NCBI RefSeq assembly: GCF_030445035.2
Contig: NC_080695.1
Span: forward strand, 51,229,954 to 51,293,953
DNA length: 64,000 nt
Source: Dasypus novemcinctus
Lineage: Eukaryota; Chordata; Mammalia; Cingulata; Dasypodidae
Direction of reading: 5' to 3'
Shown piece by piece: positions 31,831 through 63,800 of the stretch. Each line of letters begins with the position of its first letter. Position 1 is the first letter of the stretch. The position numbers were made by a program, and so were the translations under genes. The notes below the pieces were generated by a model that saw nothing but the letters and a program-made list of their open reading frames with translations, searched no databases and was not told the origin of the DNA.

Positions 31831-31844
31831 GTATTTTACCATTT

Positions 31845-32617: not shown

Positions 32618-32637
32618 GCTGGCTGCGGCCGGCGGCA

Positions 32638-41439: not shown

Positions 41440-42035
41440 GTTTTAAAAATATATATGGGTTAGAGCGGACTTACTGATATTCTACTATAAAACTATTGTG
41501 ACTAGTAATAGAAGAAATTATAGCATTGAGGAGGAAAAAGTGGCCACAGTAGGTGCTAAGGGCCGGGAGAGGGAAGAGATGTGATGAGGGGGCATTTTTG
41601 CGACTTCGAGTTGTCCTAAATGATTTTGCAGGGTCAGGTGCTGGACTTTACATATCCTGCCTTAACCCACTGAATGTACTGGGGGAGAATGTGAACTACA
41701 GGGTGAACTATTATCTATGCGGTGCAGCAGTGCTCCAAAATGTGTTGACCGAGTGCGATGACTGTGCCGCAATGATGGGGGAGGTTGGTTGGTGTGGGAG
41801 GAGTATGGTGAGGGGGTGGGGGGATATACGGGAACCTGTTACATTTTTTAATGTAACATTGTTCTGTGTGTGATGTATATATCTTCCAAAAAATACAATT
41901 TACAAAAATGATGGGGTAGGGGTGGGGAAAGGAGTATATGGGAACTTCTTATGTGTTTTATGTTTTTTAATGTAACATTCTTTGTGATCTATTAACTTTA
42001 ATTTAAAAAGTGTAAAAATAAAAAATAAAAATAAA
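41440..42035 (+). mobile_element. LINE-1 3' UTR with internal duplication
   Basis: Xenarthran-looking L1 3' UTR text: 'aagaaattatagcattgagg', 'gacttcgagttgtcctaaat', 'tgcagcagtgctccaaaatg'. The terminal phrase (gggaac, then tgtaacatt) occurs twice, once at about 41829-41880 and again at about 41939-42000. An (AAAAT)n tail follows at 42010-42040. The 106-codon frame at 41553 belongs to this UTR. Confidence 0.7.
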
Positions 42036-42361
42036 AATAAACCTGAAAAAGAAAGAAGGAAATGAAGGAAATGTCATGGCTGCAGCTCGAGAAGGAGGCG
42101 GCCGGCTGCAGTCCTACAGGCCCTGGTGGACTCTCGAAGGACACAGCCCCTCTCATCGGAGTGGGGAGTTGTCGAAGGGCTTCAAGGTACAAGTGGCTGA
42201 CAGTCTGTCCTTTGCCTTTTTCCACCAGATACGCAGAAGATGTTGGAAGCTTGTCATGGGAGGCTGTGGGTATGGGAAGGAGTAAGCATGACAAAGAATA
42301 CTATGTAAATATGTAGGAGTACAATTTGTGTAAATACATTTATTAACAAGCAAATAAAGTA
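42036..42361 (+). other. GC-richer segment with own poly(A) signal, possible L1 3' transduction
   Basis: Immediately after the L1 tail the composition changes. An open frame of 69 codons with a Kozak-like ATG (42076-42285, start MAAAREGGGR) is followed by an AATAAA-type signal ('caaataaagtaatcc') and a short A-run at about 42375. This could be sequence carried along by L1 read-through, a fragment of a processed transcript, or plain unique DNA. I do not recognise the peptide. Confidence 0.3.
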
Positions 42362-43074
42362 ATCCTTGCTCTCAAAAAAATCTGCTTCTTCAAAATCTGA
42401 GTGCCCATGGACTCTACAAAAAGTGTATTTGCATAATTGAAGAAGCGCGTTGATGTATTACATTTCTGGAGCCCTCGAGGGCCCTTCCCAGGGGTCTAGC
42501 TAATGACTCCAGTTGCTTCTTTCCATCCAGGCACACTCCATAAACATTGTGGCTAATATGTCTGCCCAAGGTCTAAATATCTGAAGAGTGAAGCTGAAAT
42601 TTTGCCAGTATTCCTGTGGTTCTAAGGCTGCCTGAAGTTAACTGTGACAAACTAGCCATTTTAGTGAATCATCTGAGCAGTAGCCTCAGCAGCACTGGTG
42701 CAAATTTTTTCAAATTGACATGAAGGAAGTCATAGATCTCTGAGCTGAAACATGCTATTGTAGTTTTCTGTGTGCCAAGAAAGCTAAAGAAAATAAGTGT
42801 AGCAAGCCAGCGTGAATGCAGAATTCACAGCAGAGCATGAATATACGAGCTTCGCTTGCAGGATGGAGGATGGGTATATCTACATTTACAGGAGGCTGGA
42901 TTCTTGCAATGGGTTTTAAGTAATCTTAAAATCTATGGTTCATACTGGGAAATGGTAAGAAAACTTCAGGAAACAAAACAGGAGGAATGTTCATACTAAA
43001 TGTACAAAGGGCAAGTGACAGAAGTGACCTAAAAGCTAAATTGTCTGCAGTGTTGCATGAATTACCTCAGTTAA

Positions 43075-43225
43075 TAGTCATACCAGTTCTTGAAAGAGGT
43101 GGTACTATTATCTCTGTTTTACAAATGAGGCTATTGAAGAAGTAATTTGCCCAAGTAACAGAATTAGCAATTTATTCAGTTAGAGTCTGAGTTATGAATT
43201 AAGCTTAACCACAGTGCTGTCCCTC
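43075..43225 (+). mobile_element. MIR SINE remnant
   Basis: MIR core phrases 'ggtggtactattatctctgttttacaaatgaggctattgaag' and 'taatttgcccaagtaacag' are clear, followed by 'gtctgagttatgaattaagc'. Confidence 0.75.
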
Positions 43226-44036
43226 GGGTTAAAGTTGGACCCCGACTGCAGAAAGTGACCCCAAAAAAGGGAGACTCCCTTTCTGGTATATAGGAGACTT
43301 TCGGTTTAAAAAGATAGATTAAATACTGCAATTTGTTAAATTAGAAGTATCTACATTTAACTAGCCTCCTCCTAAAACTTATTTACAGACTCAAAGTAAC
43401 TGCAAAACCTGTTGTCAGTGAGAAAACGAGGGGAGACCTTGGACTGCCTACTGCCGATTGCACTCAGATATTAGGCCCCTAAGGCAGCATTTAGTAATGC
43501 ACATTTTTCAGGGAAAGGCAAAAATCCAAGGATGGCGCTATGCTGTACCTAACAAAAATAAAGGATTTTGAGAGTGTTACTTGACATAAGCTAAAAATAA
43601 AAAAACAAAAAAAAAAAGAGGGAGTTTTTTGCCACAGGAGGCACTTATTAAATATTTGGCTAAAGCACCACAAATTAAAAGTTCTGATGAAGTAAGTATG
43701 GGTCAAATCCTAAGGTCTGTCTTTTTCACCAAGTGAAAGACCTCCATTATCTGCTTGTTTTCCACAGAAATCGAGCCTCACCCTCAATCTGACTCCTACT
43801 GGCTAAGTTTATCTATTTGCCCTTTATAACCTTTCTTGATTCTCTTTGTCTTTGTTATTCTCCACTTGCCTCCCATTCCCCAGCTTCCACATGTACCCAA
43901 ATACATGCTTAGTTTACTTAATCTTTAATGTGATTTGTTTATTCCATTACATGCATGCTGCATATGCTGCATATTTTCTCTCCTTAGATTTGAGTGTTTA
44001 CCACTCTTCTACCCACCCCTGCCTCTCTCAGTCTTC

Positions 44037-44041
44037 CCATT
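44037..44041 (+). repeat. 5-bp target-site duplication, left
   Basis: CCATT directly before the LTR; repeated at 44646-44650. Confidence 0.75.
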
Positions 44042-44645
44042 TGTAGCAGTTTGATATTACTGGTGAATTCCCAAAAGAAATATTGGCTTGTGTTTGTTAA
44101 CTATTCTTGTCTTCTGGGTGTATAGACGTATTAGGGTGTGTTGGATTTGGAGGTTTTACTTTACTTGATGAAATAATGACTAAGCCTTTGATTGGGCCAC
44201 TTCAGTAGATGTTGAGTCCCCGCCCCCTCGGTGGATGGGAACTCACAGAGAAACTGCACCGCAGAGAAGGGAGGTTGGAGTTTTGATATTGGAGCCCAGG
44301 AAGTAAGCACACAGAGGAGCAGAACAGCTGAGCCCAGAGAGAATCGAGCCACGGGGAGAGAGACAGAGCCGGTATCTGATAGTCAACAGCTGGCCTTGTG
44401 GAGCAAGCAGGGCAGCTGAGCCTGGAGAGAAACAAGCTCCAGAAAGCGTGGAACCCAGGAAGCCTGAACCCTCACAGACGTCAGCAGCCATCTTGCTCCA
44501 ACACTTGGCGACAGACTTTGGTAAGGGAAGTAACTTATGCTTTATGGCCTGGTAACTGTAAGCTTCTACCCCAAATAAATACCCTTCATAAAAGCCAGCT
44601 GATTTCTGGTATTTTGCAGCAGCATCCCTTTGTCTGACTAATACA
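44042..44645 (+). mobile_element. Solo LTR, copy B, with perfect target-site duplication
   Basis: The element begins TGTAGCAGTTTGATATTAC and ends CTAATACA, so it has the TG...CA ends of a long terminal repeat. It is flanked exactly by CCATT on both sides. Inside are 'tttatggcctggtaactgta', 'aataaataccc' and 'tttctggtattttgcagcag', shared with copy A at 22272-22829. A 5-bp duplication suits an ERVL-class element. Recombination between two LTRs would have left this single copy. The 149-codon minus-strand frame is a by-product. Confidence 0.8.
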
Positions 44646-44650
44646 CCATT
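44646..44650 (+). repeat. 5-bp target-site duplication, right
   Basis: CCATT directly after the LTR end, equal to 44037-44041. Confidence 0.75.
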
Positions 44651-45468
44651 ATGCCGATAACTTACCATTTCAAGAAAGTCTTCCTGGACCAATCTGAAGG
44701 AATCTGTTATAACTATTCTAGTAGAGGGTTGTAGAGAAGAAATAAATCAAGCCAATAAATATATTTCTTCTTTCTCCTTTCAGTAGACCTCTGAAATAGA
44801 GAAAATTAGAATATCTGTGTACCAGTACTTGCATTCAGGCACACTACACACACACAAGCCAGTCACACACAGACATGAGCCAGAGAGAAGCATCCTGTTT
44901 AATTATACAAGTTGGGTTTTTTTATTTTTTATTTTTGGAGTTTTTAACCAACTATTAATTAACTGATATGAATGGAAAATGTGTCATTAATAATTTAACA
45001 CAAGTATTAGTTATTGGGGTTCTGGAAAACTAGTGAAACAGTTGTGCAAATATGTCCCTCAGAGAACGTGTAGACCTGCCGGAGGTAAAGAAAATGCAGC
45101 AAAGGGCTAATTTGGGGTCACACTCAAAACTTATTTACGATAGAAGTTAGAAGAGCAACCTCTGGGGGTGAGCAATTCCTGTGAAAACGGACTGGGAAGC
45201 CAGGGAAGGCCTTGTGGAGGTTGGGTCTCCTGACCTTGGCAGTTGTGTGTGTGCCTGTGTAACTTCCTCGAGTTTTGCACTTAAGATACGTGTGCTTTAC
45301 AGTATGTAGGTTATTTTTCAAGAAACATTTTTTAAGTTATCAAAAATAAAGACCCATAAGATAGGTTTACTATCAGGTATTAATTTCTTACTATGTCAGG
45401 TGATCTACACATTTTTCTTAAGCTCTTTGACGTTCTGGAAAAGTATATATAGTCCTTCTCTCTCTCTC
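44651..45468. other. Unassigned sequence
   Basis: A short CA-rich patch is seen near 44843-44870. No gene or clear repeat otherwise. Confidence 0.4.
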
Positions 45469-45701
45469 TTTTTTTTTTTTTTTTGAGGTACCAGGGCCAA
45501 GGATTGAACCTGGGACCTCATAAGTGGGAAGCCAGCACTCAACCACTGAGCCACATCGGCTCCCCTGAGCTGGTCTTCCCATTTGTTTGCTTGTTGTTTT
45601 GTTGTTGTTGCTGTTGTTTGTTTCTAGGAGGCATCAGGAACTGCACCTAGGACCTCCCATGTGAGAAGCAGGAGCTCAACCACTTGAGCCACATCCACTC
45701 C
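45469..45701 (-). mobile_element. tRNA-derived SINE, dimeric, minus strand
   Basis: Two tRNA-Ala-like modules lie in tandem on the minus strand. The right one (about 45623-45701) reads GTGGCTCAAGTGGTTGAGC then a degenerate B box. The left one (about 45481-45566) reads GTGGCTCAGTGGTTGAGTGC then GGTTCAATCC. A (GTT)n-rich linker separates them, and a T-run at the left marks the A-tail. The modules are more similar to tRNA than those of the long DAS SINEs. Confidence 0.7.
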
Positions 45702-46780
45702 TTGTCCTCTTCTTTTAATGAGAAATTATTGTTTAAAAAAAAGCTCATTTTATAAAGTCAACATGGAAAGAGCTAGTTGTTAATGTATTAAAATCTCAAA
45801 AATAAAAAGATAACCAAGGTTGCTCCCACCAGTAAAGCATGGTGAAGGAAATTATGCCCATCAATTTCTCTCCAATTCTTTTACCCCAAGCCTCAGGCAC
45901 AAGCTGAGAGCAGTTCATTTGTATCTAAGAAGGAAAATATCCCTTGTAGGAAATTAGGTATATATTCAAATATTCATTGACTATCTACTATAAGCAAAGG
46001 TAAATCCAAATTTAGGGACTTATAGTTAATAGAAGTACAGATGACTATTTAAAATAAAATGAATACATTTATGAATGCACAATTATTTACAGTCTATACT
46101 TATTTATGAGAGGGGAGATTATAATAAATTACAGAATTTAGCCATATTAAAAAACATCACAAATCTGGGGGAAAATTAATTAATTGCCTGACAACACCTC
46201 TAACATATATATTTGCCTGTATTTTCATCTGCATACTCTTTGCCAAAACTATTATGATATCTTTTGTAGAAAAAATAAAAGATGATTCTTGCCTCCAACA
46301 TTGTTGTCTGAAATGTGTTATTTATCAATAAATGCTTAGCACTGTTTTTTGTTCTTCATAACTTACAGGGAATATGAATTACATTTACTGGATTGTAAAA
46401 CTGGGGGGATGCTCTAAAGTGTGCTTTGAATATAAGCTGTAAGATTTTAGAATACTTCAATTATCTTGTGTGCTTGCTATCTGAAGTATTTTTTAAGTGA
46501 TATTGAATACCTAGTTTGTTGTCAGTGTCCTCACTGCACTGGCCTATTCTAGTTTTAGGTTATCTTGCTCAATGTCAGTGTTTTGTTTCATATGATCAGG
46601 AGATTGAAAATATTTCCAGTGGGTTCGTATGCTCTAATCCTCTTAATTTATTGGCTTATCAAACATCAAGAGTTTATTCACCAGGCAAAGCTCATCTCTT
46701 TCTCTTAATGTGTTACTGAACTTGTATGATCTGTTATTTTGGTTAAAATTTATACCAAAATATTGCCATGTTTCCATTGT
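45702..46780. other. AT-rich sequence, no gene seen
   Basis: No recognised feature apart from AT-rich tracts. Confidence 0.4.
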
Positions 46781-47155
46781 GTGTTTTTTTTTTTTAAGAT
46801 TTATTTATTTATTTAATTTCGCCCCCTCCCCTGGTTGTCTGTTCTTGGTGTCTATTTGTTGCGTCTTGTTTCTTGGTCCGCTTCTGTTGTCGTCAGCGGC
46901 ACGGGAAGTGTGGGCGGCGCCATTCCTGGGCAGGCTGCACTTTCTTTTCACGCTGGGCGGCTTTCCTCACGGGCGCACTCCTTGCGTGTGGGGCTCCCCC
47001 ACGCGGGGGACACCCTTGCGTGGCACGGCACTCCTTGTGCGCATCAGCACTGCGCATGGCCAGCTCCACACGGGTCAAGGAGGCCCGGGGTTTGAACCGC
47101 GGACCTCCCATATGGTAGACGGACGCCCTAACCACTGGGCCAAAGTCCGTTTCCC
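46781..47155 (-). mobile_element. DAS-type SINE, minus strand, full length
   Basis: The T-run and 'aagatttatttatttattta' tail start at about 46783. The GC-rich body contains 'cgtcagcggcacgggaagtg' and the head ends 'gggccaaagtccgtttcc'. It is very close to the copy at 18650. The word ccattgt occurs on both sides (46774-46780 and 47156-47162), consistent with a target-site duplication. The 153-codon plus-strand frame runs through the SINE and is not a gene. Confidence 0.9.
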
Positions 47156-49700
47156 CCATTGTTTTTTTTAAACTCATCTTTATACTTTTTCCATAATGCT
47201 CCTTTTATCTGAATTTTCTGTTTAGTTAATTGTTGGATACACATGTACTACTTAGGGTTTGGCTGGTAAATGAAAGACCATAAACGTTTTCTTCCTGTGT
47301 CCACGCAGGCGTCGGCCCTTTCTCCCGTGCTTGACTGACCTGCCCGCGTCCTGGGCATCTGAGCAGCGGCTCCTCCGCTCCCGCGTGAATCCGCCGGTGG
47401 CAGGTGCAGGAGGCTGAGTCAGGAAGCCCCCAGGGCACTTGTCCTTCAGCCTCAATCCACGTGCCAGGCAGGACCCAGGTGCATGGAGGACCTCCTGAAG
47501 GCGCTACCTTTAGTTAAGGGGTTGCCCGAAGGAATATGGGACCCCTTACTCCAGATCCCTGGAGAGTTTTAGGGGCGGGATAAATTCAGATACAGAGAAG
47601 CTCCAGGGAGGAGCGAGAAGTCAGCGAGCACAGGCAGAGCAGACGCAGGAGAAGTGGGCGAAAGCCTGGAGAGGGCGCGGGCCTGGCACTGCAGGGAGGG
47701 CACCGCCTGGGCAGGGCGTGGCCTGGCCAGCCCCTGGCCTTGGACTTCCAGCCTCAGTGACCTGGGACCTTCAGCCCCATTGTGCAGCCAGCGGGCGGCC
47801 TTTGTCCTGCGGCCCGGCAAGCCGCGAGCCATGCGCTTGTGTTCCTAAAAGCTCTTCTAATGCCAAGAGGACTGGGAATGACTCAACTGTACAGGAAAGT
47901 GACTCCGAAGTAAGGGAAGATATTCTACAAAGTCAAATGAAATAATTCAGCAAGTGAACCTGCCCTCAGCTCAATGGTAAAAGTGCCTGCGGCCCTCCAG
48001 GTCACCTAGCTAGAAGGGCAGGACCACGCGTGCTGAGATGAACGTGGGGAAGAGGCAGGCGTCTTACTGGTAGTGGATAAAATAGCTTCCTTTTGTAAAT
48101 TTTACAAAATCGCGTAACCTTGTGACTTAACCATCTATACTCAAATTTCTGAAGACTTCCTGTTGTCAAAATGAACCTGTAGCACAGGTGTCTGGGCTCC
48201 TTCCCTGGAGGTTCTGATTGGACAGGCTTAGAGAAGGCTCCTGGATGGTTCCGTGAGTGTCCAGGTGATTCCTGTCCTTAGAAAGGTTTGAGCACTACCG
48301 CAGCCTCCGCCAGGGACAGGTGAAGCGTAACACACGCGGCTACTCCTTCTTTGCACACCCGTGGCATGTGAGTCTAACTAACCTAATACGCAATCTGATT
48401 CACTGAGGCTACCACGTGTTTGTGCTTTTAGCATCAGAGCCTGGGCGCGCTGGGAAGTTCTGCAATTGCTGAAGAAAGTGCCGGGGACCACATCCCTGGA
48501 GAGAAATGCTGCCCTTTATGTGACTATCATAATTAAATGCATCCATCTTTGCATGCCTATTTACAACAATTACTGCTACAAAATTGTTCTCAATCTCCTA
48601 TCCCGTGTATTTCAGGACCTAGAAGTGATGTGAGCATCTTTGTTCCCTGATGCTGTTTCTGAATTAGCCAGAGTTCAGTCTGGGAGCACAACCTCTGCAG
48701 TTGCCAAGATTGATTACAGGAATCAGATCACACACAAATGTTAAGGAGGAGCTGGAGAAGAAAGTTTCTGCAGGGAGGAGTGAGAGGATCAGACAAAGCT
48801 ACGAGCCAGTTCTAAGTGATGGTGCAGGTGGACCAGGGAAGCTTATAGAAAAATCAGAGGGGCCATACACACCCAGTATCAAAGATGGAAGCGCAAAGAG
48901 GAAGCTTGTCCACAGGAACCTCCTACCTCCACGGCGCTACCATCCCTGCATCTGAGGCTCCTGCTGGCCAGCTGACCCGGGCGTCAGAAGGGGAGCCAGG
49001 TGTGAAGTGGGGGACGATGAGGATAAGCCGACCCAAGGGCACCTCAGGGGTGGCCTTCAGCTGCTCTGAGCACTGTGGCTTCTAGGGGTGAAGTCTGCAT
49101 GCATCACATCGGCCTTCCAGATAGCGTGCACGTTCATCTTTGGGCTGACTTTAAATCTAGAACCATCCAGGGACAGGGAGTCTAGGAAATTCACCAGCCA
49201 AACCACCTTGATATAGCACAATACGCTTCACTGAGGCTCTTGAAGAAATCCCTGTTCATTAGTGAATCCATGGAAATTTGTTAGTAAGTGGTATGCTGAT
49301 GAATGTTTAAATGCCTGCGTGGTAGAAAAAAAATAAGTAAATAATCAAGACTTCATTTATAGTTTCTGCCAAGCTCTATCTAAAAAATACTTCTTCCAAG
49401 GTCAATTTCAAGCATTACTATGATGTTCCTGAATGCCAGGTTAGGAAGAGGTGCTAAAATTTGTGTCTCCTTAACTAGTGTGAACCAGTTGCAGCCCTCC
49501 TGTTTACTGATGACAGCAGGTATACTTCTTTATCACTCTTCCTTGACTCAATTTAAGAATTAGCAAGAGGAATACAGGTTTTTCTCCTTCTACCCACTCT
49601 GCTGCGTTAAGACAGTTCTCAGTGACTAAAAAATCCATAGATCCTCCATTTTTCTTGATCTGTTTTTCAGGACAAATATTCATTCCTTCACTCTAATTCA
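47156..49700. other. GC-richer unassigned region
   Basis: From about 47280 to 47850, and less so to 49100, GC and CpG content exceed the surroundings without matching the 5S spacer or SINEs. Short open frames (up to 87 codons) occur on both strands. A pyrimidine tract ending 'tgtgtccacgcag' at 47309 could serve as a 3' splice site. It could be a decayed CpG island, an exon-bearing fragment or an unrecognised repeat. I cannot decide. Confidence 0.35.
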
Positions 49701-49725
49701 GTACTCAACTCATGATCATACCATT

Positions 49726-49850
49726 ACATATGTGTGTATATATATATGTAATATATATTTATATCATGCACACATATATACACACATCATTACATATAAA
49801 GACATATGTATCTATATTATACATGTGGTGTATATATGGGGACATTTCTT
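49726..49850. repeat. AT/GT-rich low-complexity tract
   Basis: Alternating TATA, TGTG and CACA runs (for example 'gtgtgtatatatatatatgt') interrupted by short words. This is a degenerate compound microsatellite. Confidence 0.8.
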
Positions 49851-51511
49851 CTCCACAGAAATGGCATGGCCTGTAGTTGTAACTTAATACACTTTGAAGT
49901 CCACTGTGCTGGGCCTAGACTAAGCCCTTTTAGTTTAGAGATTTGTGTTTATCAGGAATAGGAAATTGTATTGAATTAATCTATGATACTCTGGCTATGT
50001 GTTTCTCTCTTCATCTCTCTTCCTAAAACTCTTGCCTCTGTGCTGTAATCGATTTTTTGAAACTCTATTTTCCAAGGAAATTATTCCTTTCATTTAGGTC
50101 TTGGAAAGCATTTGAGTAGAGTTAGTTTTAATTAGTGTCATACTTTTACTCATAGTAATAAGTCTTTGAAATTATTTTACACGGTTTCCTAATTTGAGTT
50201 TTATAAATTTATTTCTGAGTAAAGTAATATATCCATTTGACAAACAAAGCAATTTAGTAACCAGCATGAAGCATTCGTGTACCTACTTAATATATTCAGA
50301 TACTAATTGTATGGTTTATAAGTGAAATCATTAGGTTCAAAACACATCTGGCTAATTGTGGTTTTTTTTAACTTCTGCCCTTTAAAATTTGTTGTGAATG
50401 ATATTTATTAGCAGTTAATGAGTGTCTTCAAAAATGCACTTGAAAAATCACTTTTTTGCTTGACATGTTTATTTTTTTTTTGAATTTTACTTTTAAAATG
50501 TGTGTCTCTTTAAATAGTCTGTTGAATTTTGTAAGATCATGGTATTGCCTTATATTATCAGAATCATCAAGATGCCCAGGTTTTCATTCATTTAAAATCT
50601 TTATTTTTTTAGCCATCATTTGCCAGATTATGGAAATTTATAATGTCAATTTAAACTCTAAATCTATGGCAACAAAGATCTGGAAATTCTGTTTCCAGAA
50701 AAATATGCAGAGTTAATAATGCAGACAAGGCTCTTTGCCTTAGTACCAACCACTTGGATGGCTGCTCTCATAATTTTGTAGTAAACTTATTTTCTATCTC
50801 TCTATTTCCAAGTTTTTTCTTCATTTCTTCCAAAGTTTCATAAATAAGTTTCAGATACTTCGTGTGAAATTACGTAAACCTTTGCAATCTGAGCAGAAAC
50901 ATATTGGGAAAGTGTATTATTTCTCTTGTAATCACCTAACACCCATTCTCTTTGTTCCCTCTTTCTGAAAGTCCTATCAGTTAGGTGTAGGAGAGCTAAT
51001 TGATCCTCACTGAAAAATGAGGAAGTAGGTTATAGTTTCTTTAATCTTCTTCTTGTCCTAAAAATGTGTTGTTGTGTTTTTTTCCTAGTAAGAAGCTAAA
51101 ACTAGAAGTACAATAAAATTTCACATGTAACAAAATCTCTAAATAAAAGCATTGAGGATTATATCCCATTCCCCCTCCGTGCTCTGAGAGCCGGGGCCTC
51201 CACTGGGCGGAGAGTGTGGATCTGCACCAGTGCCTGGAATGACGGGCTGCCTCCAGCAGGCGTGGAGGACACAGCATCAACCCACAGACGACACGCAGAC
51301 TTTGGGATCTAATGGAGCTTTCCCTGATATGTTTCAGACTTGCTGTTTTCCTTCTAATTTCTTCCTTCTGCAATGCAAATATCTGTCCTAAGACTAGTCC
51401 CATCATTGTGTGTTGGAAGCAAATATGTTGTTTTCCAGGTTTCACAGGTCTATCCACAAAAGGAAAGGAAGTTTGCTCCAGCATGGACCATACCTATAAC
51501 TGATTTTTTCA
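49851..51511. other. AT-rich sequence, no gene seen
   Basis: The minus-strand 147-codon frame at 51041-51484 is the only long frame. It has no domain I recognise, although GC rises near 51170-51270. No call is made. Confidence 0.4.
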
Positions 51512-54310
51512 AAATATGTTTTTTTTAAGGAAGTTTTGAACTTATAAAACAATCATGCACATGTGTCGAATTCCCATACAACACCCCTCCCCCAATACAC
51601 TACATTGTTGTGGAACATTTGTTACAGATTTTGAGATATTATCAGACTATTAAGACTAACTATGATCCATAGCACACATTTGGCATACTTTTTCCATCTC
51701 TCCTATTATTAACACAGTACATCTTTGGCATGACGCGAGAGTTTTACAGTATTGCTGTTAACTATAGTCCATAGGTTACACTAATTGTACTTTTCCCAAG
51801 CTTCTCCACATTCTCACCTCCTTGCAATAGTGACGTACACTTGTTCTAGTTTACAGGAGGGCATTCTTGCATTTGGACTATTAACCACAATTCTCATCCA
51901 CCTCTGGGTTCACTATGTCATTCAGTCCCTAGACAATTCTCTAGGTTTCTTTCAATTGACATTTACATCCCTAGACTATGCTTTTCAGCCACATTCCCAC
52001 TTAAAAAACAGCTTCATTAGTTCTACTCACAGTAATGTGTTACCATCAACTTCATCCATTTCCACATTTTTACAGTCAAGTTAATTAAAACAAAACCTTC
52101 TACATATATTAAGCCTCAGTATACCTTCTCAGCCTTCCTCTTATCTCCTAATAACCTACACTCTATGTTTTAACTCCGTGTGATTATTCTTCGTATTTAG
52201 TTCATGTTAGTGAGACCATGCAACATTTGTCCTTTTGTGCCTGGCTTATTTCACTTAGCATAATGTTCTCAGGGTACATCCATGTTATCACTTCTGTCCC
52301 AATTTCATTTATTCTTATAGCAGCATAGTATTCTATCATATGTATATAATTAGGAATAAACTTTTGTTTATCCATTCTTTCATTGATGGGCACTTGTGTT
52401 GTTACCACTTTGGGCAACTGTGAATAAAGCTGCTATGGACATCGGTGTCTGTGTCACAGTTTTCAGTTCTTCTGGAAATATTCCTAGTAGAGGAAATGCT
52501 AGATCATTCGGCAGTTCTATATTTAGCTTCCTGAGGAACCAGTAAACTGTGTTCCACAGAGGCTGCACCATATTACAATGCCACCAACAGTGAAGGAGTA
52601 TTCCTATTTCTCCACATGCTCTCCAGCACTTACTGTTTTCTGTTTTTTAAATAATGGTCATTCTGTGCAGGGTGAGGTGTTATTTCATTGCCGTTTTGAT
52701 GTGTGTTTCCCTGATAGCTAGGAATACTGAACATTTTTTTCATGTGCTTTTTTGGCGATTTGTATTTTCTCTTTGGAGAAATGTCTTTTTAAGTCTTTTG
52801 CCCATTTTAAAAATTGGATTGCTTGCTCTTTTATTGTTGAGTTGTATAATCTCTTTATATGAATGGAAATCAAACCCTTATTAGATATGTGGTTTCCAAA
52901 TACTTCCATTGAATGGGCTGCCTTTTTACTTTCTTGATGAAGTCCTTAGAATCACAGAAGTATTTTTGTTTGAGGAGGTCCACTTATCCATGTTTTCTTT
53001 CATTGCTCATGCTTTTGGGGCAAGGTTTAAGAATCCACCACCTACCACCAGTTCTTGAAGATGTTTCCCTACATTTACTTCTAGGAGCTTTTGAGTTAAT
53101 TTTTTGTATAAACTGTGAGATAAGGGTCCTCTTTTTTACTTTTGGATATGGATATCCAGTTCTCCCAGCACTATTTATTGAATAAATTGTTCTGCCCTGG
53201 CTGGGTGGGTTTGACAGCCTTTCAAACACCACTTGGCATAGATATAATGGTCTGTTTCTAAACCATCAGTTCTGTTCCATTGGTCTATGTGTCTATCTTT
53301 ATACCAGTACCATGCTAATTTTTTTTTTTTACCACTTTAGCTATGTAATAAATTTATAGTTCAGAAGTGAGAGTCCTCCAACTTTGCTCTTCATTTTTAA
53401 GATGTTTCTGGTTATTTGGGGCCCCTAACTCTTCCAAATAAATTTGATAATTGTATTTTCTGTTTCTTTAAACAATTTTTTGGGATTGCACTGATCTGTG
53501 TATCAATTCGGGTAGAAATGACATCTTAACAATATTTATTCTTCCAATCCATGAGCATGGAATGTTCTTCGATTTATTTAGTATTTTAAGTTTTGTTTAT
53601 TTGTCTGTTTTTACCAAGGCATTGTAGTCTCCTAGATATAAGTGCTTTATATCCTTGGTTAAAAACTTAACCTAAATATTTAATTCCTTGGTCACTATAG
53701 TTAATGGAATTTTTTTCCTGACTTCCTTCTCTGATTGCACGTTACTAGTGTATAGAAACACTACGGATTTTTGCATATTAATCTTGCATCCTGCCCCTCT
53801 GCTGAAATTGTTTATTAGTTCTAGCAGCTTTGTTACAGGTTTTTCAGGACTTTCTAGGTATAGGAGCATATCATCTCCACATAGAGATCTGGATGCCATT
53901 TATTTCTTGTTGTTGGCTGATTGGTCTAGCTAGAACCTCTAGCACTAAATTGAATAAGAGTGGTGACAGTGGGCATCCTTGTCTTGTTCCTGGTCTCTGC
54001 AGGAAAGCTTTCAGTCTTTCACCATTGAAGAAAATATATGGCCTTTACCATGTTTAGAAAGTTTCCGTCTATCCCCATTTTTGTAGTACTTTTATCAAGA
54101 AAAGATGGTGCATTTTATCAAATGTCTTTTCTGTGTCAATTGATAAGATCACGTGATTTCTCTTCTCTGGTTTATTAATGTAGTGTATTATGCTGACTGA
54201 GTTTCTTGTGTTGAACCAAACTTGGATGCCTTGTATAAAGTCCACTTTGTCATGATGAATAATTCTTTTTAATGTGTTGTTGGATTTAATTAGCAAGTAT
54301 CTCCCTAGGG
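51512..54310 (-). mobile_element. Antisense LINE-1: 3' UTR plus ORF2 C-terminal and reverse transcriptase parts
   Basis: Read on the minus strand, 51512 is the 3' end (T-run on plus at 51520) and the element extends rightwards into ORF2. At 53672-53899 the translation shows the reverse transcriptase catalytic region with the motif GDDM (for the usual FADD or YADD). At 54069-54290 there is the upstream block with 'HHDKVDFIQG' and 'SIDTEKTFDK', both known L1 landmarks. Stops and frame breaks are present, so it is inactive. The sequence is cut in the middle of the reverse transcriptase region at about 54300-54317, where 5S spacer begins. Confidence 0.85.
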
Positions 54311-54706
54311 ATGCGGTTTCCTTCAGGTCTCCCGCTAGCGAGACCCGGCCTCCGCACACCTGCCCGCCGCCAGTGACACCCTGGAACGCTGGGCCTCGGT
54401 CTCCCAGCCGCGAGCCCAACTGGCCGCGGAGCCGGGCTGCCAGGACCAGCGCCTCTGCTCGCCGTGCCCTCGTGTGCCCTCATGCCCCGAGCACAGATCC
54501 CGGCCAACGGGCCCTGCCGTTCCCCCCCCCCCCCGGGGGAAGGAGTCCCCAGGGTGCTGCTGGGGCCAGAGGGGCACGGGCCAGAGGCCTCGCGGGCAGC
54601 GGACCGGCGGGTGTCCGCCGTGCAGGGCAGGGAGCTCTGGCCCGAGTGGGCCCGGGTGGCGGGTGCTGGTGTTCGGCTGGACCAGGCGCGGAAGGCACCG
54701 GCCCGG

Positions 54707-54769
54707 GACCCGGGCTCAGCCAGGTGGGACCCGGGCTCAGCCAGGTGGGTCCCGGGCTCAGCCAGGTGG
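54707..54769. repeat. 21-bp minisatellite, three units, in the 5S spacer
   Basis: GACCCGGGCTCAGCCAGGTGG occurs at 54707-54727 and 54728-54748, and with one change at 54749-54769. The partner positions in the other unit ends hold one unit (57356-57376) or one unit plus a fragment (34380-34405). Confidence 0.9.
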
Positions 54770-55457
54770 CCCCCTGGCGGCCTCCGCCTCCGCCGGCGGT
54801 GTGTCCAGGCGCCTTGGGCTCTGAATGCCGCCAGCCCCGTGCGGGAGAAGCGATGGGCCCTGGGCACGTGTGCTAGTGTCCGTGCGTGCGTGCGCCTGTG
54901 TGTCTGCTTCGCGGGCTCCGGACCGTGTCCCGTTGGTCGGCACAGGGGTACCGACCGCACTGGCTGAGGGAGAGCCGCCCGCTTTCCCGCTGCGCGAGGG
55001 GCCACGGGGCGTGGGCGGCTGGTTGGGTGGGGCCTGTCGCCTGGGCTCAGGGGGCCACAGGAAGTCTGTGGCATGGGGCCCATCGGCGTGGTGCCAGGCA
55101 AGGCAGGGAAAGGCGAGAAGGGGCAGGCCCTGTGTGCACGGTTCCAGGGCACGGGCCAGAGGCAGGGCCCGCCGGACGCCGACAGGTCTAGCGGGCCTGG
55201 GGTCTTGGGCCCAGGCGCAGTGGGCGCGGGCCCCTGCGTGCCCCAGCCAGGTGTGGGTTGGTGCGGGGCTGCGAGCTCCAAAAAAGGACTGGGTGGCCGC
55301 TGCCTGCGTGGCTGCGCCGCCAGGGAAGGGCGCGCGCGGTTCGGGGTTGGGGCCAGGGGCCCGGGGCCTGCATACCTGGCCCTGAGGGCTGCGGGGAGCC
55401 GGGCTCGGGGCGGGCAAAAGGAGCGCGAGCGAGAGGTGGAGAGGGGCGGCGCGGGGC

Positions 55458-55461
55458 AAAA
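55458..55461 (-). terminator. Pol III terminator, T4 on the minus strand
   Basis: AAAA on plus gives TTTT at the 3' end of the minus-strand 5S copy, in the context TAGGCTTTTGCC. Confidence 0.6.
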
Positions 55462-55579
55462 GCCTACAGCACCCGGTATTCCCAGGCGATCTCCCATCCA
55501 AGCACTAACCAGGCCCGACCCTGCTTAGCTTCCGAGATCAGAGGAGATCAGGCGCGTTCAGGGTGCTATGGCCCTCCAC
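55459..55579 (-). rRNA. RNA5SP: 5S rRNA-like sequence, likely pseudogene (copy 2)
   Basis: The minus strand aligns with mammalian 5S rRNA over all 121 nt with about 8 differences: C3G, T4G, C6G, C14G, C30T, G37C, A77G and C91T. Box A and the intermediate element are intact, and only C91T touches box C, so transcription by Pol III is conceivable. C3G, T4G and C6G break helix I because the 3' strand (GCTGTAGGC) is unchanged. C14G and A77G are shared with copy 1 and may be common ancestry or the species' own 5S state. Loss of helix I argues for a pseudogene. Confidence 0.88.
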
Positions 55580-55599
55580 GCCGGCTGCTGCCGCCAGCA

Positions 55600-55611
55600 G
55601 CCTCAAGAGCC
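55600..55611 (-). promoter_or_regulatory. D-box-like element upstream of 5S copy 2
   Basis: The minus strand reads GGCTCTTGAGGC at -21 to -32 from the 5S start, one mismatch from the mammalian D box as I recall it (GGCTCTTGGGGC) and at the expected distance. It indicates that the spacer kept the promoter layout of a functional 5S gene. Confidence 0.7.
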
Positions 55612-57383
55612 CGCTGCGCGACGCCGCGCTGCCAGCCTTCAGCTCCCGCCCCGCCCCCGGAGGCTGAGGGCGGCCGCCTCCGGGGCCAACCCTTGGGCCC
55701 TCCGCCACCGCCCTGCCCGTCCGCCGCTCTGGCCCTACCTGGCCTCGAGCCCCCCCTCCCCCGCACGCCACTGGCTCCCGGGACCCCCGCCGCTCGCCTG
55801 CCCACACATCACCGCCCCCTGCTCCGCCCTCGGGCCCACGGCGCGGCCCCCGCGCCACCGACGGCTCAGTCGGTGGACGGCGCCCTGCGGACCCCCGACC
55901 GCCACGCGCACCCCTGGTGCCAGGCCGGCCGGCCCACGACTCTCCCGCAGCGACCGCCTCAGGCGCGAGCGCCGGCGCCCCCTGCCGGCCGGCCCTGCCT
56001 CACCACCCCGCGCCCGGGCCAAGCACCTGCCACCACGCCCAGCCGGCGCCCCTGAGCCGGTACCGCCCCGGCCCAGGAGGCGGGGCCAGCCCCAGTCCGG
56101 GCCTGCCGCCCACGCGCCCGCACGCCTCCGGCTGCCCCGTCCCCCCCCACACACACGCCCCCACCCCGCACGCCTTTCCCCCTGAGTTTCTCGGGTCCTG
56201 GGTCCTCGGCCGTCGCAGCGGGTCCCCGCGTCCAGACCTCCTGCTCCCGACCGCGCACAGGGCTCTGCCCTTGCCTGCCGGGGCCGCTCCCAGGAGCCAC
56301 GCCCACGCGGAGGGTGGGGGTCGCCCCGCATGCCGCCCGGCCTTCACGCCACACAGCCGCGCCGTGCGCGGGAGCGGCCGCTCTCCCTTGGAGCAGCGGC
56401 CACGAGCTGGCGTCGGATGCGGGCGGCCGCGCTGGCTGCAAACGCCGACCGCGGGGCCAGGCGGAAAGCGGCAGGTGGCCGGATCGGGGCCAGGCTGTCC
56501 GCAGGCCTGCGCAGCTGGGGCCAGAGCAGAGGCCCTTACACCTGGCACCGGGGGCTGCCCAGCCGCAGCGGGAGGCCCCGAGGCGCACGCAGCGGAAGCG
56601 CCCCCGGGCCGCGGCGGTGGGCGTGGCCTCGGTGCCCGCGCACCTGCGCCTGGGCCCTGCCGGGCTGCCGTGGGCACGGGTCTCTCCTCGCAGAGGCCCT
56701 GGGCCGCAGAGCTGGAGCCCCGGCCCCCTGCCCTGCCACCCCGAGCCCCTCCAGGCGTCCCGGCCTCAGCCGGCCTAGGCCTCGCTGTCGCCAGCGCCTG
56801 CTGACGGCAGAGCTCGCCCAGCTCCTGCAGATGCGCCTGGCGGGAGGCGAGGGCGACAAGGCCGCCCGCTCGGCCAGACCTTCCAGAAGGCGCCTGGGCG
56901 CTTGCCGCCGGCGGGAGGGACCCTTGCAACCCGCGCCGAGCGCCCCGTGGGGGAGATCCCCTCGGGAGGCCGCTTCCTTCAGGTCTCCCGCTAGCGAGAC
57001 CCGGCCTCCGCACACCTGCCCGCCGCCAGTGACACCCTGGAACGCTGGGCCTCGGTCTCCCAGCCGCGAGCCCAACTGGACGCGGAGCCGGGCTGCCAGG
57101 ACCAGCGCCTCTGCTCGCCGTGCCCTCGTGTGCCCTCGTGCCCCGAGCACAGATCCCGGCCCACGGGCCCTGCCGTCCCCCCCGGGGGAAGGAGGCCCCG
57201 GGCTGCAGCTGTGGCCAGAGGGGCACGGGCCAGAGGCCTCGCGGGCAGCGGACCAGCGGGTGTCCGCCTGGGAGAGCAAGGTGCTCGGGCCCGAGTGGGC
57301 CCGGGTGGTGGGTGCTGGTGTTGGGCTGGACCCGGCGGGGAAGGCACCGGCCCGGGACCCGGGCTCAGGCAGGTGGGACCCGG

Positions 57384-57675
57384 CATCAAAATAATACTGT
57401 TTTTGTAAAATATAAATTCAAATAAACTAGAGAGATGGAAACAGATTAGCAGCTGTGTATGGTATTGGAAGCACAGAGAGATTGAGAGGAGACGAGGTTT
57501 TTTTGGTTGGCTGTTTTTTAAAAATTTTTATCATTATTGTAATAGGGAAAATGCTCTAAAAATGATTGAAGTAATGAATTCACAACTATGCGATTACACC
57601 AAATACCACTGAGTGTATACTTTGAATGGATTCTATTTAAGAGTTTCATTAAAATTGGTTTGTTAAAAAAATGAA
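57384..57675 (+). mobile_element. Sense LINE-1 3' UTR adjoining island 2
   Basis: The text 'aaataaactagagagatgg', 'gaaaatgctctaaaaatgat', 'gtgtatactttgaatggatt' and the end 'attggtttgttaaaaaaatg' is a typical L1 3' UTR on plus. It begins right where the 5S block stops. Its orientation is opposite to the L1 on the other side of the block. Confidence 0.75.
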
Positions 57676-59224
57676 GATAGAAATTCAATTAAAATAATTT
57701 AGTTGAATGGAAAGAGTGTAAAATAAGATTATTTTATATAAATAAATTTTCTAACAACTTAGGAGTCAGCAAATTATAAAAATCAAACAACAAACTTAAG
57801 AGTCAGGCTCGCAATATACTTTCACATTCGCTTAACTTGAATTTCTTTAAATTTAAAACACATTCCCTTAAACAATGTGCATTCAATTTCAAATGGACAT
57901 TTTTTGAAGTTTAACACAGTACACGCATTTCTTAATTTAACATCAAAGGCTTAGATCATGGAGATCTTCAATAGGCAGTGATATATAATTTTTCTATGAC
58001 AAAGAAATTCAATTATGGACATTTCCGGGCTCTGAGACAATAATATTCTCGTGAGTGAGCCCATGTTAGCGGTTACTTTGCTTTGTCACTTATGTATTCT
58101 GTGAGAAAAAATACCTATGTGCAAGAGCCATGTTGATGAATTTGAGGTAGTTTATGGTTGTGGCCATTGTGGATGTCATGGTTCTATTTGCATGTTCAAT
58201 TAGAAAAAGTCATCATGAAAATCCCTTAATTTATATTCTCTTTACAATATAATTTTTCATGTAATATAATGGTAGTGGAAAAAAGAGTATTCATTGTCTC
58301 ACGTTGGTTGTCTGTCTTGGTCCATTGACAATTGGATTTTTGTGACTTTCTTAGTTTTATATGAAAATTTTGAGTCACTCTCTGCTTTTCCTCACTTCTC
58401 CCCAAGGGAAGAGGAATGGCCCTTCTGTTTAGTGAGAGTCTTATATTCATTGCATTGGTATATAATAAGCAGAGCCATTGTGGTGTGGTCCTGCCATTCA
58501 AACCATTATTTGAAGTCCTTTTTGTCTATTATTCTTATATGAATAGACCTCTCTCTTTCTTTCTTAATGTTTTGGCTGCTTACAGGTACCTTGGGAGTTC
58601 CATCTTTGGCCCTGCCACTTTCTGGTAAATGAATTTGGAATCTATTTTATGTTTATTTCACTCTGAATTTTGTTGCATGCATACCTCAGCATATAAATAA
58701 GTCCCAAGTTCTAACAGGATAAGAGAAAAAACAAGGCAAACAGGGCTTATTAAATTTACCCGAAGTCAGATTACCAACAGCCCTGCCTCTTTCAAGAGTT
58801 ATAAGTTATTTTTCCAAATTTAAAATGGGAAATTTCATTTCCCTTCTGGCTGGTGACCTTCTCTTTATTCATTATGGTCAGATCCCTGAAGCAGTGAAGA
58901 ATGAGAGTTTTAATGCCCTGTGAACTCAGCCACATTTCTTTATAATCTTAATTTCATGAGGGATAGAATGAATCTTAAAGTTTCATATTGGCTGACGTGC
59001 TCTTTCCATGTATGTATGGATGTGTTTGGCATAGTTAGGAACTGAGCAAGAATGCGGTTGAGTGTGCTGGTAGCTAGTAGGGTTGTGGGCTGAGGAAATG
59101 CCAGTGAAGCACATGCTTGGGAATTTTGTGAACAAAAAGAAAAATATGGAGGTTCACATGAACCAGATTTCTACCTGTCTGAGAAGAGCATTAGAAAAAA
59201 TAATTATTTTGCAAGTTCACAATA
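57676..59224. other. AT-rich sequence, no gene seen
   Basis: No coding region, RNA gene or clear repeat is recognised. Confidence 0.4.
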
Positions 59225-59515
59225 TCTGTAACAGAAATATATTTCAAAAATATAGTATGGTTTGGGGGAAAATACACCAAGTGTAAGATTAGGAATATAG
59301 TTGGTAGTAATATTTTGATGATGGATCTTGCATAGTTTGTAACAAATGTTTCACAGCAATGCAGAGAGTTGGTGGAGGGGTGAAATATGAGACCCCTGTG
59401 TGATGTTATATATGTTTATTTTGTAAGTTCGCAATTCTTACTATACACGTATTGTTTATGTGTGTTCATGTAGGAATGATATACTTCAATAAAAATAAAA
59501 ACAAAAAAAAAGTGA
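59225..59515 (+). mobile_element. LINE-1 3' UTR end
   Basis: Phrases 'gggggaaaatacaccaagtg', 'catagtttgtaacaaatg' and 'tatacttcaataaaaataaa' plus the A-rich tail at 59488-59525 identify an L1 3' end closely related to the one at 13340-13553. Confidence 0.75.
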
Positions 59516-60465
59516 AAAAAAGGAAAATGGCAAAGAGGAAGGATAGAATGAACCTCTTAGTGCTGTATTTGAGTTAGAGGCAATTTTGCATAAACTCATG
59601 GTTTTAATATTTTTAGATATTGAAATAAATAAAATGTGTGTATGTGTATCTGTGTGTGTGTACATGTATAATGTATTTCCTACCTCTGACTTGTAGGAGG
59701 TATAGAAACAGTAACAGCCTAGTGGCAATGAACAAACCAAGTACCCAAGTCTTTGTTCTTTCATATCACTGAAAACACCATTGTCCCTTAAACAAACAGC
59801 GTTCCTTGGAGAAATGCTGACTCCAAGACAGTGGCAGGACAAAAATACAAGATGAACAATTTTGTATAATAGAAATCTATGAAACCACGCTTATATAAAT
59901 GAATGAATGAATGAATTGGAGAAGAGTAAGTTTTCCTTATTATAGAATGCCACCTAATAAGTGTAGAAGGAAGATGGAATTAGATCACCATCATTTGATT
60001 CAGCACAGACTTTTAGCAGCTAAGGAAGCTAAAAATAGTGGGTAAAATTTTGATGAGGAACAGGACACTTACTAATCTCAATATATCACCCCATATCGTC
60101 AGAAGAGGAGAATAGTAACTTCGTAATACAGAAGAGGAGAATAGTAATTTCGTAATAGAGAAATCTGGCAGAAAATATCTTAGCCAAGAGGTTATGTTGG
60201 TAGCACCAAAAATGGGACATCATAATCAGTGGTTCATAGTTAAACCTGTTCTCAAAAAAAAGAAATCCAGATTTGTAGCATTTGTCATTTTTGTGGTGTA
60301 AGCATGCCCACCATGCCAGATTTCAAGACATCAATATAATATCAGTGAATACACAGTTAGGAGGAAATGTGCTGAATTAGCTCCTGCAAGCATTTACAAG
60401 CCAGCTTCTGAACACGATTGACAATGTGCCATATGATACAATGTCCTAAGAAACATACAGCTTCA
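59516..60465. other. Unassigned sequence
   Basis: A GT-rich patch lies at about 59635-59665 and a (GAAT)n tract at 59897-59920. No gene is seen. Confidence 0.4.
60100..60157 (+). repeat. Tandem duplication, 29-bp unit, two copies
   Basis: Unit 1 (60100-60128) and unit 2 (60129-60157) both begin cagaagaggagaatagtaa and differ at one base by eye. Confidence 0.85.
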
Positions 60466-60880
60466 GGAAGTGCATGTGGCTCAAGTGAAAGAGCTTCCGC
60501 CTACCATATGGGATGACCTGGGTTCAATCCCTAGGGCCTCCTGGTGAAAAAGAAGAGAAAGTGTGCCCACATGGCAAGTAGTGCCCGTGCGAGTGCACTC
60601 CTGGTGAGCCAGTGCCCCGTGCAAGTAAATCATGCAGGAAGATGATGACACATCAATAGAGAGTCAAGGGGAAGGTCAAGGTGAAGTGCAGCAGAAACCA
60701 GGAACTGAGGTGGCACAAATGACAGGGAACCTCTCTCCCCATCAGAGGTCTCAAGGTCGAATTCCAGTGAATCCTAGAGGAGAGAAAATGAGAAGACAAC
60801 ACAGACAGCAAAAACAGCAGGGAGGGAGGAGGGCAAAGGGTTAAAATAAATAAATAAATCTTCAAAGGAAAAAAAAAAGG
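60466..60880 (+). mobile_element. DAS-type SINE, older copy
   Basis: The tRNA-like head 'ggaagtgcatgtggctcaag' and B-box-like 'gggttcaatccctag' are followed by a body that is less CpG-rich than in the copies at 18650 and 46781, and by a tail 'taaaataaataaataaatc' with an A-run. The loss of CpGs suggests greater age or another subfamily. The 70-codon frames here are by-products. Confidence 0.8.
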
Positions 60881-63800
60881 AAAAATATAGCATCACATTT
60901 GTGATATCTTGCCAAAAGTACAGCTCCTAAATTTACTCATGAAGAACATGAGGCAAACTGAAATTGAAAAACATACCACAAAGTAACAGTTTGCATTTTG
61001 CAAAAGTGTCAAACTGATTAAAGACAAAGAATGAGGAAAAGAAGAGACATGGTATTAAATGCACTGGTTTTTTTGTAGGTTGAATCATTTTGAATAGAAG
61101 ACATTGTAGGCAGATTGGTGAAAAATCAATGTGGTCTGTGGATTAGATGGTTGTGTTATCCCAATGTCACCCTTTTTTTCTAGAGAACTTTATTTTAAGA
61201 AATACAAGGGAATTTTTAGGAATATTGGGTTATCATGACTGCAATTTGTTTGCAAATTGTTCAGTATAAAATCATTTTATATGATAGATGGACAGATAGA
61301 ATCAAGATGAATATATAGCTAGTAGATACATGGGAGTTGTTGTCTACTTGCAACTATTCATTTGAAAATTTTAAAAGAGTTTTAAAAAAACTCTTTATAT
61401 GGAAAAAATGACAAATCAGTCAGAATATTAAGCAATCAATATTTAAACATTTTGTTCTGACAAAATTGTTAAACATTCATGAAAGATAAATTAATCATAT
61501 TTTAAAAGTTAGTTGTTGAGTAAAATACAAAAAAAAGTAAGTCGGTGGCAGAGGTAAAGAATTCAGAACAAAAGATTGAGTTGCTGACAAACTCCTTTAA
61601 TCAGCTCTGTGCTTTGACTTTACATTTTCATTTGAGTAGTCCTATGTATCTGGTCTTTTATTGTAAGCCATTTAAAATCAAATTTGGAGGTAGACAGGTT
61701 ATAAATTATAATTGCAAAAAATATAGCAAAATTGGTGACAACTTGTAGCTGACAGTGTTAAGGAGAAGTAAATATTAGTGGGCTGAAGGTAGAATTTGTA
61801 GGGTTTATAATAAAATTTTCTCCATTTTCTTAGTTATTTGTCTTTCTAGGTCACAGTAAAACAACGTGATAAACAGATTCTGCGTCTGGCAATTTAAAAA
61901 AATCAATTTTATTTCATACGGCAGAAATAAGCTCTTTCTTACAGTCCACTCAGTTAAGAGCCCAAAGCGAAAATCCAATTTGAGGGGGTGGAGCAGGGCA
62001 TGCCCTCTGTCCAGCTCTGGTCTGGGTGCCCAGGTAGGCAGAATCCTCTCAGCCCTCCCGGGATACCTGCATGTCTTTACTACCACCTGAAGCATCAAGA
62101 CCTAGAATTTTTGTAGAATAGCAAATGATTATATGTTGTAATAGAAGTACACACAGGACTTCTTACGAGTTTTCTTGTTGCAATTAATAACAGTAGAGGG
62201 AGCATGATACTTTAAATATACACAATACTTTCATATACACAATTCATTTATTACAAATTCCTACAAGAGAATTATTATCATTTTATCGACGTAGGAATAT
62301 ATTTCAATTTTTTTAGTGACTTAGTCAAGGTTCCAGAGCTAATTTCCATATGTGCCAGGACTGGAAATAGGTTTTCTGATTCCCTATCCAGAACCCTTCC
62401 ACAGTAATGCAACCAAGGAAAATGAACAAACAGAACAGTCAAACAACCAGTGCATGTGTATTGAATACCTACATGTGTGAATTACTGAGCTGTGGGTTGT
62501 GGGCTTTCAAAAATAAAGATAAGTGAGGGTCTGATCTCCCAAAAAGGCTATATTTGAAAAAAAAAAAAAGAACCAAGTATAAAGCATTGTATGAGAAGTG
62601 GAAAGCTGTATCCTTCAATACAGAGAAAATATATCCCACTACAAACACGGGTGGCCAAGAGTTGTTTCTATGAGGAGGTGAGAACTGAACTGATTCTCAT
62701 CTCGGTAACAGGACACCCATAGTAGGAAAGCAAGGAAGGACAACATTTCTTACAAGGATTCACAGTTAATTAAAATATTTGAACAATGTGGTCGGAAAAG
62801 TCACAGATTAACACAAATCATAGGAAAGCCAGAAAAATGTAGTATAAATGGTACAATGGAAACTTTCTTGGTTAAATTACTTAGATCTATAGTAATTTTG
62901 TATTTTCTACAAAATCAGCCAAAATATAAAAATAAAACCTAGTGAAAGGACAAAAGGACAGCAAACATCATAAATAGATAAAGAACAGGTGTTTTAAGTA
63001 GATGTCTCTTTTCTTGGTATAGAATGGTTTAGAGCTGGTCCATCCACAGGCACAGTCCAGTTCTCCCTCACGTCCTTGCTTCTTTCCCTGGCCTGCGCAA
63101 GTCTCACTCTAAGTCCTTGGGATTCGTGGCCACAGAGTGGGCTCTATTATTCAGCTTGGCACCAGCAGTTTGCTTCTGGCAGAGGAGAGGGTTTGACTCA
63201 GGAAGATTGCTTCCTTGGGAACAAAGGCCTGGGCTCCCCCACTTACTGCATTGCCCCATGTGCTTCTGTTAGTTACTATGTAGCTGTCAGCAGTAGTCTC
63301 TCTGTATATTTCTGCTCACCAGCAGGGAGAAACTTACAGCTTCTCCTCCCAAACTATTCAATTAGAAGATATATTTACCAGGGTCATAAAGGGGTAACAC
63401 CTGAAGACATTTCAAAGTGTCTATCATTCGAAACACATTTTTTAGCGTTCTTTGGGTGAACTATGCACTAACGATGCAGGAATGAAAAGACTCCTGGAAG
63501 TCAACCCGCTTTGGCTGTGAGTAAATGGATTGCGGCACAAACCCTAAATCTCAGTCAGGAATCCCATTTCCAAAAGCCCCTTTCCATGCACATGTGTCAT
63601 CCACACAGGCTCACATATTATCTTCTAAGGAGTGGATGATACATATTTTTCTCTCCTTTTCTCTGTTCCTACTATACATGCTGATAATGGTTTGAGATTC
63701 ATAGTGTACTGATTGGCCAAAAATGCCAAAATGACTAGTTAAGTTTATATGTCCGAAATGTAGGTGAAACTTTTAAACCCAATGAAACATTTTTTTGTGT

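Follow-up and report, generated by a model that had tools for sequence, protein, structure and literature searches.

The window analysed here is a stretch of 64,000 nucleotides from the genome of Dasypus novemcinctus (C37:51229954-51293953; genome size 3.61 Gb), and it carries two blocks of 5S ribosomal DNA (rDNA), B1 and B2, which include spacer and lie on the same strand. B2 (54303..57388, minus strand) is a 5S rDNA block of about 1.15 units with a period of 2656 bp, whereas B1 (32052..34405, minus strand) comprises 0.89 unit and is 92.9% identical to B2; unit counts given here and below (0.15, 1.15, 2.15) are nominal. An earlier note, made from the letters of the window alone, had rightly described B2 as about 1.15 units of an approximately 2,656-bp repeat with its 5S gene on the minus strand, and as lying in an AT-rich region: GC content reaches 70-81% within B2 (500-base windows) versus 26-38% in the adjoining 1.5-2 kb. 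The direct repeat that it placed at 54318/56974 is real but starts slightly earlier, at 54303/56959. The repeat pairs 54303-54527 with 56959-57183 (spacing 2656, 96% identity) and continues through 54528-54739/57177-57388 at 91%, and homology of B2 to array DNA begins at 54299. B1 and B2 have their right ends at nearly the same point of the unit (within approximately 2 bp), in the counterpart of a 21-bp tandem repeat (3.1 copies, 54705..54769). Private changes crowd the right edges of both blocks, with 9 and 13 in 145 bp versus 4 in the inner copy, and the divergence between B1 and B2 is highest in the 5S zone and at the block edges.

Both blocks contain a 5S pseudogene that scores above the gathering threshold of the Rfam covariance model (38 bits). 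In B2 it lies at 55461..55579 (minus strand; 81.6 bits), where 8 changes separate it from the array gene; in B1 it lies at 32499..32617 (minus strand; 75.6 bits) and differs by 11 changes, one gap included (13 mismatches when compared ungapped), so that neither block holds an intact 5S gene. At -32 to -21 of the B2 gene we found a 12-base box, GGCTCTTGAGGC (55600..55611, minus strand), identical to the 12 bases of the array, and its B1 equivalent, GGCTGTTGAGGC (32638..32649, minus strand), differs from the array by one change. This is the position of the upstream D box of mammalian and human 5S genes. The ordinary 5S array of this species is on C43, at approximately 33.19-33.31 Mb, with a spacing of about 2.8-2.9 kb (best 40 of 193 candidates). 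We compared 24 array 5S rows (23 exact) with a human 5S reference; as two rows repeat units (L054), these correspond to 22 distinct units, 21 of which carry the exact human-type gene and the remaining one a single change.

Childs et al are said to have used the term orphons, in 1981, for dispersed members of tandem gene families. B1 and B2 lie outside the main array, on C37 rather than C43, and consist of array-derived DNA with flanking spacer: their longest matches to the array stretch L054 reach 85.8-85.9% over approximately 2.5-2.8 kb, spacer included, and the left part of B2 has a second match to it at 81.8%. The comparison with the array of the species, which the earlier note had proposed, thus places both blocks as 82-86% relatives of the C43 units. 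It also upholds the claim of that note that array-type DNA, not an RNA copy, had moved, since spacer, 12-base box and tandem arrangement all came along. Three 5S changes are common to B1 and B2 and were not seen in the array units compared, so a degenerate 5S lineage probably predates their separation. Position 77 is changed in all 20 orphon 5S rows (19 places, L028 being the same as L037), and 18 of the 20 are also changed at position 14 or 4; the other two, L038 and L039, are unchanged at 14 and do not cover position 4. The simplest reading of these shared changes would be a degenerate common ancestor of the orphon 5S genes after it left the array. Divergence between array and orphons is about 8-13%, and the tree separates the two, a split that would fit a degenerate orphon lineage but that homogenisation of the array could also give.

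On C37, 5S DNA that is related to the C43 array and includes spacer lies where duplicated segments from two other contigs meet. The order is an inverted C42 segment, B1, a 20-kb C42 segment, B2 and a C40 segment, with each block at a segment seam. The first segment (26500..32054, inverted) derives from C42 at approximately 4.856-4.862 Mb, with 96% identity over 26500-28500 and 91.7% over 31754-32054, and stops at the left seam of B1. The second (34405..54300) derives from C42:4754317-4774272; its ends were compared (34405-35406 and 51336-54300) and its middle is deduced from the spacing. As the distance from B1 to B2 is 19.9 kb and the corresponding distance on C42 is 19.96 kb, the stretch between the blocks would be one C42 segment. 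The left flank of B2 (51336-54300, 3.0 kb) is 92.8% identical to C42:4771273-4774272 up to 54300, where the alignment stops and the L1 copy on C42 runs on uninterrupted. The third segment (57387..62331, inverted) corresponds to C40 from 22256873 downward, matches in three pieces over 4.9 kb at 88-91% and starts at the edge of B2. The earlier note placed B2 among L1 relics, but its flanks are duplicated C42 and C40 segments and not just L1 relics. As expected of segmental duplications, both C42 and C40 retain donor sequence that matches up to the seam, and at the seams 0-3 bases are common to both partners. By 300-bp bins, divergence is about 4-11% for C40 and about 3-9% for C42, with the higher C42 values near the seams and 3.5-3.9% over 26500-28500. 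Further relatives of the C40 sequence beside B2 are present on both C37 and C40. Two younger copies of C40 sequence on C37 (50839558, L043; 49226347, L044) are 96.5-97% identical to C40:22256780 (L042), compared with 88-92% beside B2; C40 DNA therefore came to C37 more than once, or moved back.

The patchwork has been multiplied along C37. We scored all 24 candidates for the region 26500-28500 and found 16 full-length copies on C37, the window included (97-100%), one on C42 (96%), and seven short, weak and unrelated matches. The seams recur on C37 as well: the left seam of B1 at at least 16 places (best 40 of 1563 matches) and its right seam at at least 15 (best 40 of 88), the left seam of B2 at at least 14 (best 40 of 1539) and its right seam at at least 15 (best 40 of 1013). 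These copies span 41.8-51.9 Mb of C37 in both orientations. Ten-kilobase stretches at 11 copies (nine B2-type, two B1-type) are 95-98.7% identical to the window in their longest match, and at four copies of about two units further pieces are at 91-92%, with one at 96%. B2 had been thought to stand alone; apart from B1 in the same window, approximately 40 blocks of three kinds, including two 0.15-unit remnants of B2, are present on C37 among the matches listed. Four facing pairs of mosaic copies lie about 159-160 kb apart between 41.8 and 51.9 Mb, as in large palindromes. At the C37 copy at 42669355 B1 is present with no B2 seam nearby among the matches listed, and the mosaic there seems shortened. 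As a check for a sex-chromosome origin we looked for ZFX/ZFY-type matches and found none on C37, an absence that does not make C37 an autosome; such domains are present on C47 at 27.55, 10.42 and 94.86 Mb, with a broken copy on C5.

Comparison of the mosaic copies revealed that B2 varies by approximately whole units (2.5-2.66 kb). Left and right seam queries of B2 lie 444 and 446 bp apart in two copies; eight copies have 2927-3100 bp between them, three have 5603-5614, and one, which lost more, has 4391. Between the value of the window (3100) and the lower value of 444 the difference is exactly 2656. The 0.15-unit state requires two changes on the tree of copies. One copy, L041, clusters with the left unit in the region on one flank of the promoter (second region; support 99/99) and with the right unit in the region on its other flank (first region; support 100/99), and this split grouping marks it as a recombinant that lost one unit. 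A larger loss is found in L053, in which the B1 left seam and the B2 right seam enclose 5S DNA and the intervening 20 kb is gone. L053 is 99.3-99.5% identical to four copies that retain the 20 kb, within a five-copy clade supported at 100/99, so the fusion of B1 and B2 is a deletion by recombination. The alternative that L053 preserves an ancestral state, before the C42 insertion, was rejected, since in its four clade-mates the 20 kb and the two seams of B2 are preserved (with a 0.15-unit B2 in one of these copies), and copies outside the clade preserve them as well.

Sequence exchange between the blocks is shown by a tract in B2 (56467..57039) that is 99.65% identical to B1 33490-34062 and contains 400 identical bases at 56539-56938, compared with a longest run of 177 in 5000 shuffles. 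Over this tract the other copies compared reach at most 98.4% to B1 or B2. In the 5S zone, by contrast, B1 and B2 of the window are 84% identical, a value also found for the second units of L035 and L036, whereas copies of the same block are 88-99% identical. The tract represents gene conversion between B1 and B2.

The third kind of block, B3, lies 7-10 kb to the left of the window (L055, approximately 2944-5553), on the opposite strand to B1 and B2. Comparison by eye showed that it is one unit from which about 34 bp are missing, namely the counterpart of a palindrome, CCCCGGAGGC-11-GCCTCCGGGG (window 55655..55685), with its surroundings, or the B1 equivalent; the counterpart of this palindrome is thus both the point at which the B3 unit is opened and a sequence that B3 lacks. 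Hairpin energies of the palindrome, with RNA parameters, are -24.7 and -27.6. It has also been lost, with deletions of approximately 65-85 bp, from L038, L039, L041 and the second units of L035 and L036. A query joining the two flanks of B3 (best 40 of 4709 matches) is continuous in C42 (90%) and in five C37 copies (92-93%), and its halves lie 2480-2638 bp apart in 11 C37 copies. In the tree of the 16 copies and C42, the 11 filled copies form one clade (support 99/96), and their monophyly implies a single insertion. About 13 bp of the target were lost, and in the three of 11 copies whose B3 ends were compared there is neither a target duplication nor poly-A. The B3 5S gene shares 8 of its 10 changes with that of B1, and B3 diverges by 9-13% from array rows versus 3-11% from other orphons, so it is more likely of the orphon lineage than of array origin. 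Only B3 combines unit length, permuted order and a target that is continuous elsewhere, as would be expected of a reintegrated circle.

Taken together, we consider it probable that these blocks represent a 5S rDNA orphon lineage that moved as DNA, losing and re-inserting whole units. In the mechanism that we propose, array DNA would have been captured in the course of duplicative transposition, by end joining or by template switching, as the 0-3 bp shared at the seams suggest. Units may then have been lost when the direct repeats of about 437 bp in the small B2 array recombined, and when B1 recombined with B2. DNA of unit length, probably circular, would be set free in the process, and B3 could be one released unit that was opened at the hairpin and re-inserted. 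No transposase or reverse transcriptase would be required. More tentatively, and with somewhat less than even expectation, we suggest that this may amount to a transposase-free mobile 5S orphon, in which arrays would shed unit circles that open at the promoter-side hairpin palindrome and re-insert nearby, while the blocks would drive deletion and conversion of the host duplications.

Several observations weigh against the proposal of a lineage that loses and re-inserts whole units. The circular intermediate is only inferred, as no circle was seen, and a linear unit cut at the two palindromes of a tandem pair would have the same look. B3 is one event, read in three of its 11 copies, and no close source was found for it, the best matches being 93.6% (0.6-kb region) and 96.9% (1.25-kb region). 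The steps of B2 are not all 2656 bp, as the step from 1.15 units in the window to 2.15 units measures 2503-2514 bp and one copy stands at 4391. The tree split between array and orphons may stem in part from homogenisation of the array. Finally, the right end shared by B1 and B2 is not predicted by simple independent captures and has a chance of approximately 0.4% (one end pair, either side); two independent captures at a shared hotspot had been our initial reading, which we replaced after the genome comparison.

Within the proposal of a moving orphon lineage, two accounts of how the mosaic originated can be weighed. The first, to which we give not quite an even chance, is that a small 5S array already present on C37 served as a landing place: segments from C42 and C40 would have entered it, and the 5S stretches between them would be what was left of it. 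In favour of this account, B1 and B2 have the same orientation, 5S DNA flanks the 20-kb C42 segment on both sides, and B2 still holds up to about 2.15 units. The divergence of the orphons from the array (about 8-13%) also exceeds that of the C42 segment from its C42 donor, a difference in favour of an older 5S lineage provided that GC-rich DNA does not evolve much faster here; GC-rich 5S DNA may indeed just evolve faster than the AT-rich segments. A simple insertion predicts adjacent 5S edges, and instead approximately 437 bp are present on both sides; in addition, no untouched orphon array was found among the matches listed (best 40 of 193). In the second account, which we regard as unlikely without being negligible, C42, C40 and the 5S array were shattered and re-joined in one catastrophe from which B1 and B2 both arose; amplification came next, and only B3 is later. 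It would explain two 5S pieces in the same orientation at neighbouring seams, the 0-3 bp of shared sequence and the common right end of the blocks (within about 2 bp), as if the sister ends of a replicated break had met different partners. The donors, however, are unequally diverged (array about 8-13%, C40 about 4-11%, C42 about 3-9% and only 3.5-3.9% over 26500-28500), younger C40 copies are present on C37 (96.5-97.0% between C40 and C37), and the three 5S changes shared by B1 and B2 and unseen in the array units point to a degenerate lineage that is probably earlier.

Explanations other than movement as DNA fare far worse. L1 retrotransposition of 5S RNA or of a read-through RNA, which we consider very improbable, has in its favour that dispersed 5S pseudogenes are common in mammals, with more than 110 reported as annotated outside the mouse array (PMC3261910). 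Against it stand the spacer and upstream box that the blocks retain and the lack of both hallmarks of a retrocopy, poly-A and a target-site duplication: direct repeats at the edges of B1 and B2 do not exceed chance (the best score, 6, is the same at both blocks and equals the null median; the 95% point is 8), and B3 lost about 13 bp of its target rather than duplicating it. Equally hard to credit is that B1, B2 and B3 are copies of a transposable element that has a defined end and took up a 5S gene; the common right end of B1 and B2 would suit such an element, but B3 runs through this point and ends elsewhere, a Pfam scan of two block open reading frames (ORFs) gave no match, no target duplications are present and the repeat corresponds to the array unit. 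Misjoining of array reads into an unrelated locus, which the earlier note held to be the main alternative and which the general difficulty of assembling tandem arrays could suggest, is refuted within this assembly and keeps practically no probability, because the same seams recur among the matches listed at 14-16 places that have diverged by up to several percent and lie in both orientations, the window contains no N, and the 5S genes of the blocks are degenerate, in contrast to the array, where 21 of the 22 units read are intact.

Further properties of the blocks and the window were considered. The coding potential of the blocks was set aside, as their long ORFs do not exceed what is expected from DNA of 77% GC and the two scanned ORFs have no Pfam match; an open frame of 182 codons elsewhere in the window (4422-4970) gave no match in a Pfam scan either. 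One spacer pattern searched against viral contigs and another against prokaryote genomes returned nothing. Germline hypomethylation was rejected as the cause of the CpG richness of the blocks, since CpG decay in the 5S DNA (28/295) does not differ significantly from that in the most similar short interspersed element (SINE) pair of the window, used as a control (4/27, p = 0.33); two older SINE pairs gave 12/26 and 13/26. A GC-rich SINE-like element is present three times in the window (46784-47168, 18634-19019 and 37050-37480; 93.8% and 75% alike); it resembles an armadillo SINE family, in keeping with the guess of the earlier note as to the species.

Mosaics of segmental duplications in mammals, such as pericentromeric duplicons, consist of segments from several chromosomes that are joined at one acceptor, copied as a block and bounded by GC-rich joins. 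The patchwork on C37 resembles them in its joined segments, in its copying as a block and in its GC-rich joins, which here are 5S rDNA. It shares with orphons the dispersal of array genes, here with flanking spacer; what sets it apart is the gain and loss of whole units among its 16 paralogous copies, and an insertion for which the empty site is available for comparison. In PMC3225859, extrachromosomal 5S rDNA circles in unit multiples are reported from human cells, and its authors suggest that integration of circles could make orphons; circles are shown there, whereas here an insertion product of unit length is seen and a circle would be its likely precursor. Dispersed mammalian 5S pseudogenes (PMC3261910) are likewise degenerate 5S genes away from the array; the word 'spacer' is absent from the main text of that paper, and in the armadillo blocks spacer and tandem arrangement are kept. 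A search of the literature on 5S rDNA for armadillo, Xenarthra, orphons, dispersed copies and spacer returned no report of such a case, which is weak evidence as subscription papers were mostly outside its scope.

Arguments about how array genes disperse have to our knowledge so far relied mostly on circles in cells or on single fossils. In D. novemcinctus a copied patchwork makes the loss and insertion of array units visible, as its 16 paralogous copies provide, for the same 5S DNA, sites with and without the insertion, losses of single units, a product of recombination and a tract of conversion. The re-insertion of excised array units thereby becomes testable by sequence comparison, and 5S rDNA can be named as the join material of a duplicated mosaic whose junctions offer markers for related species.
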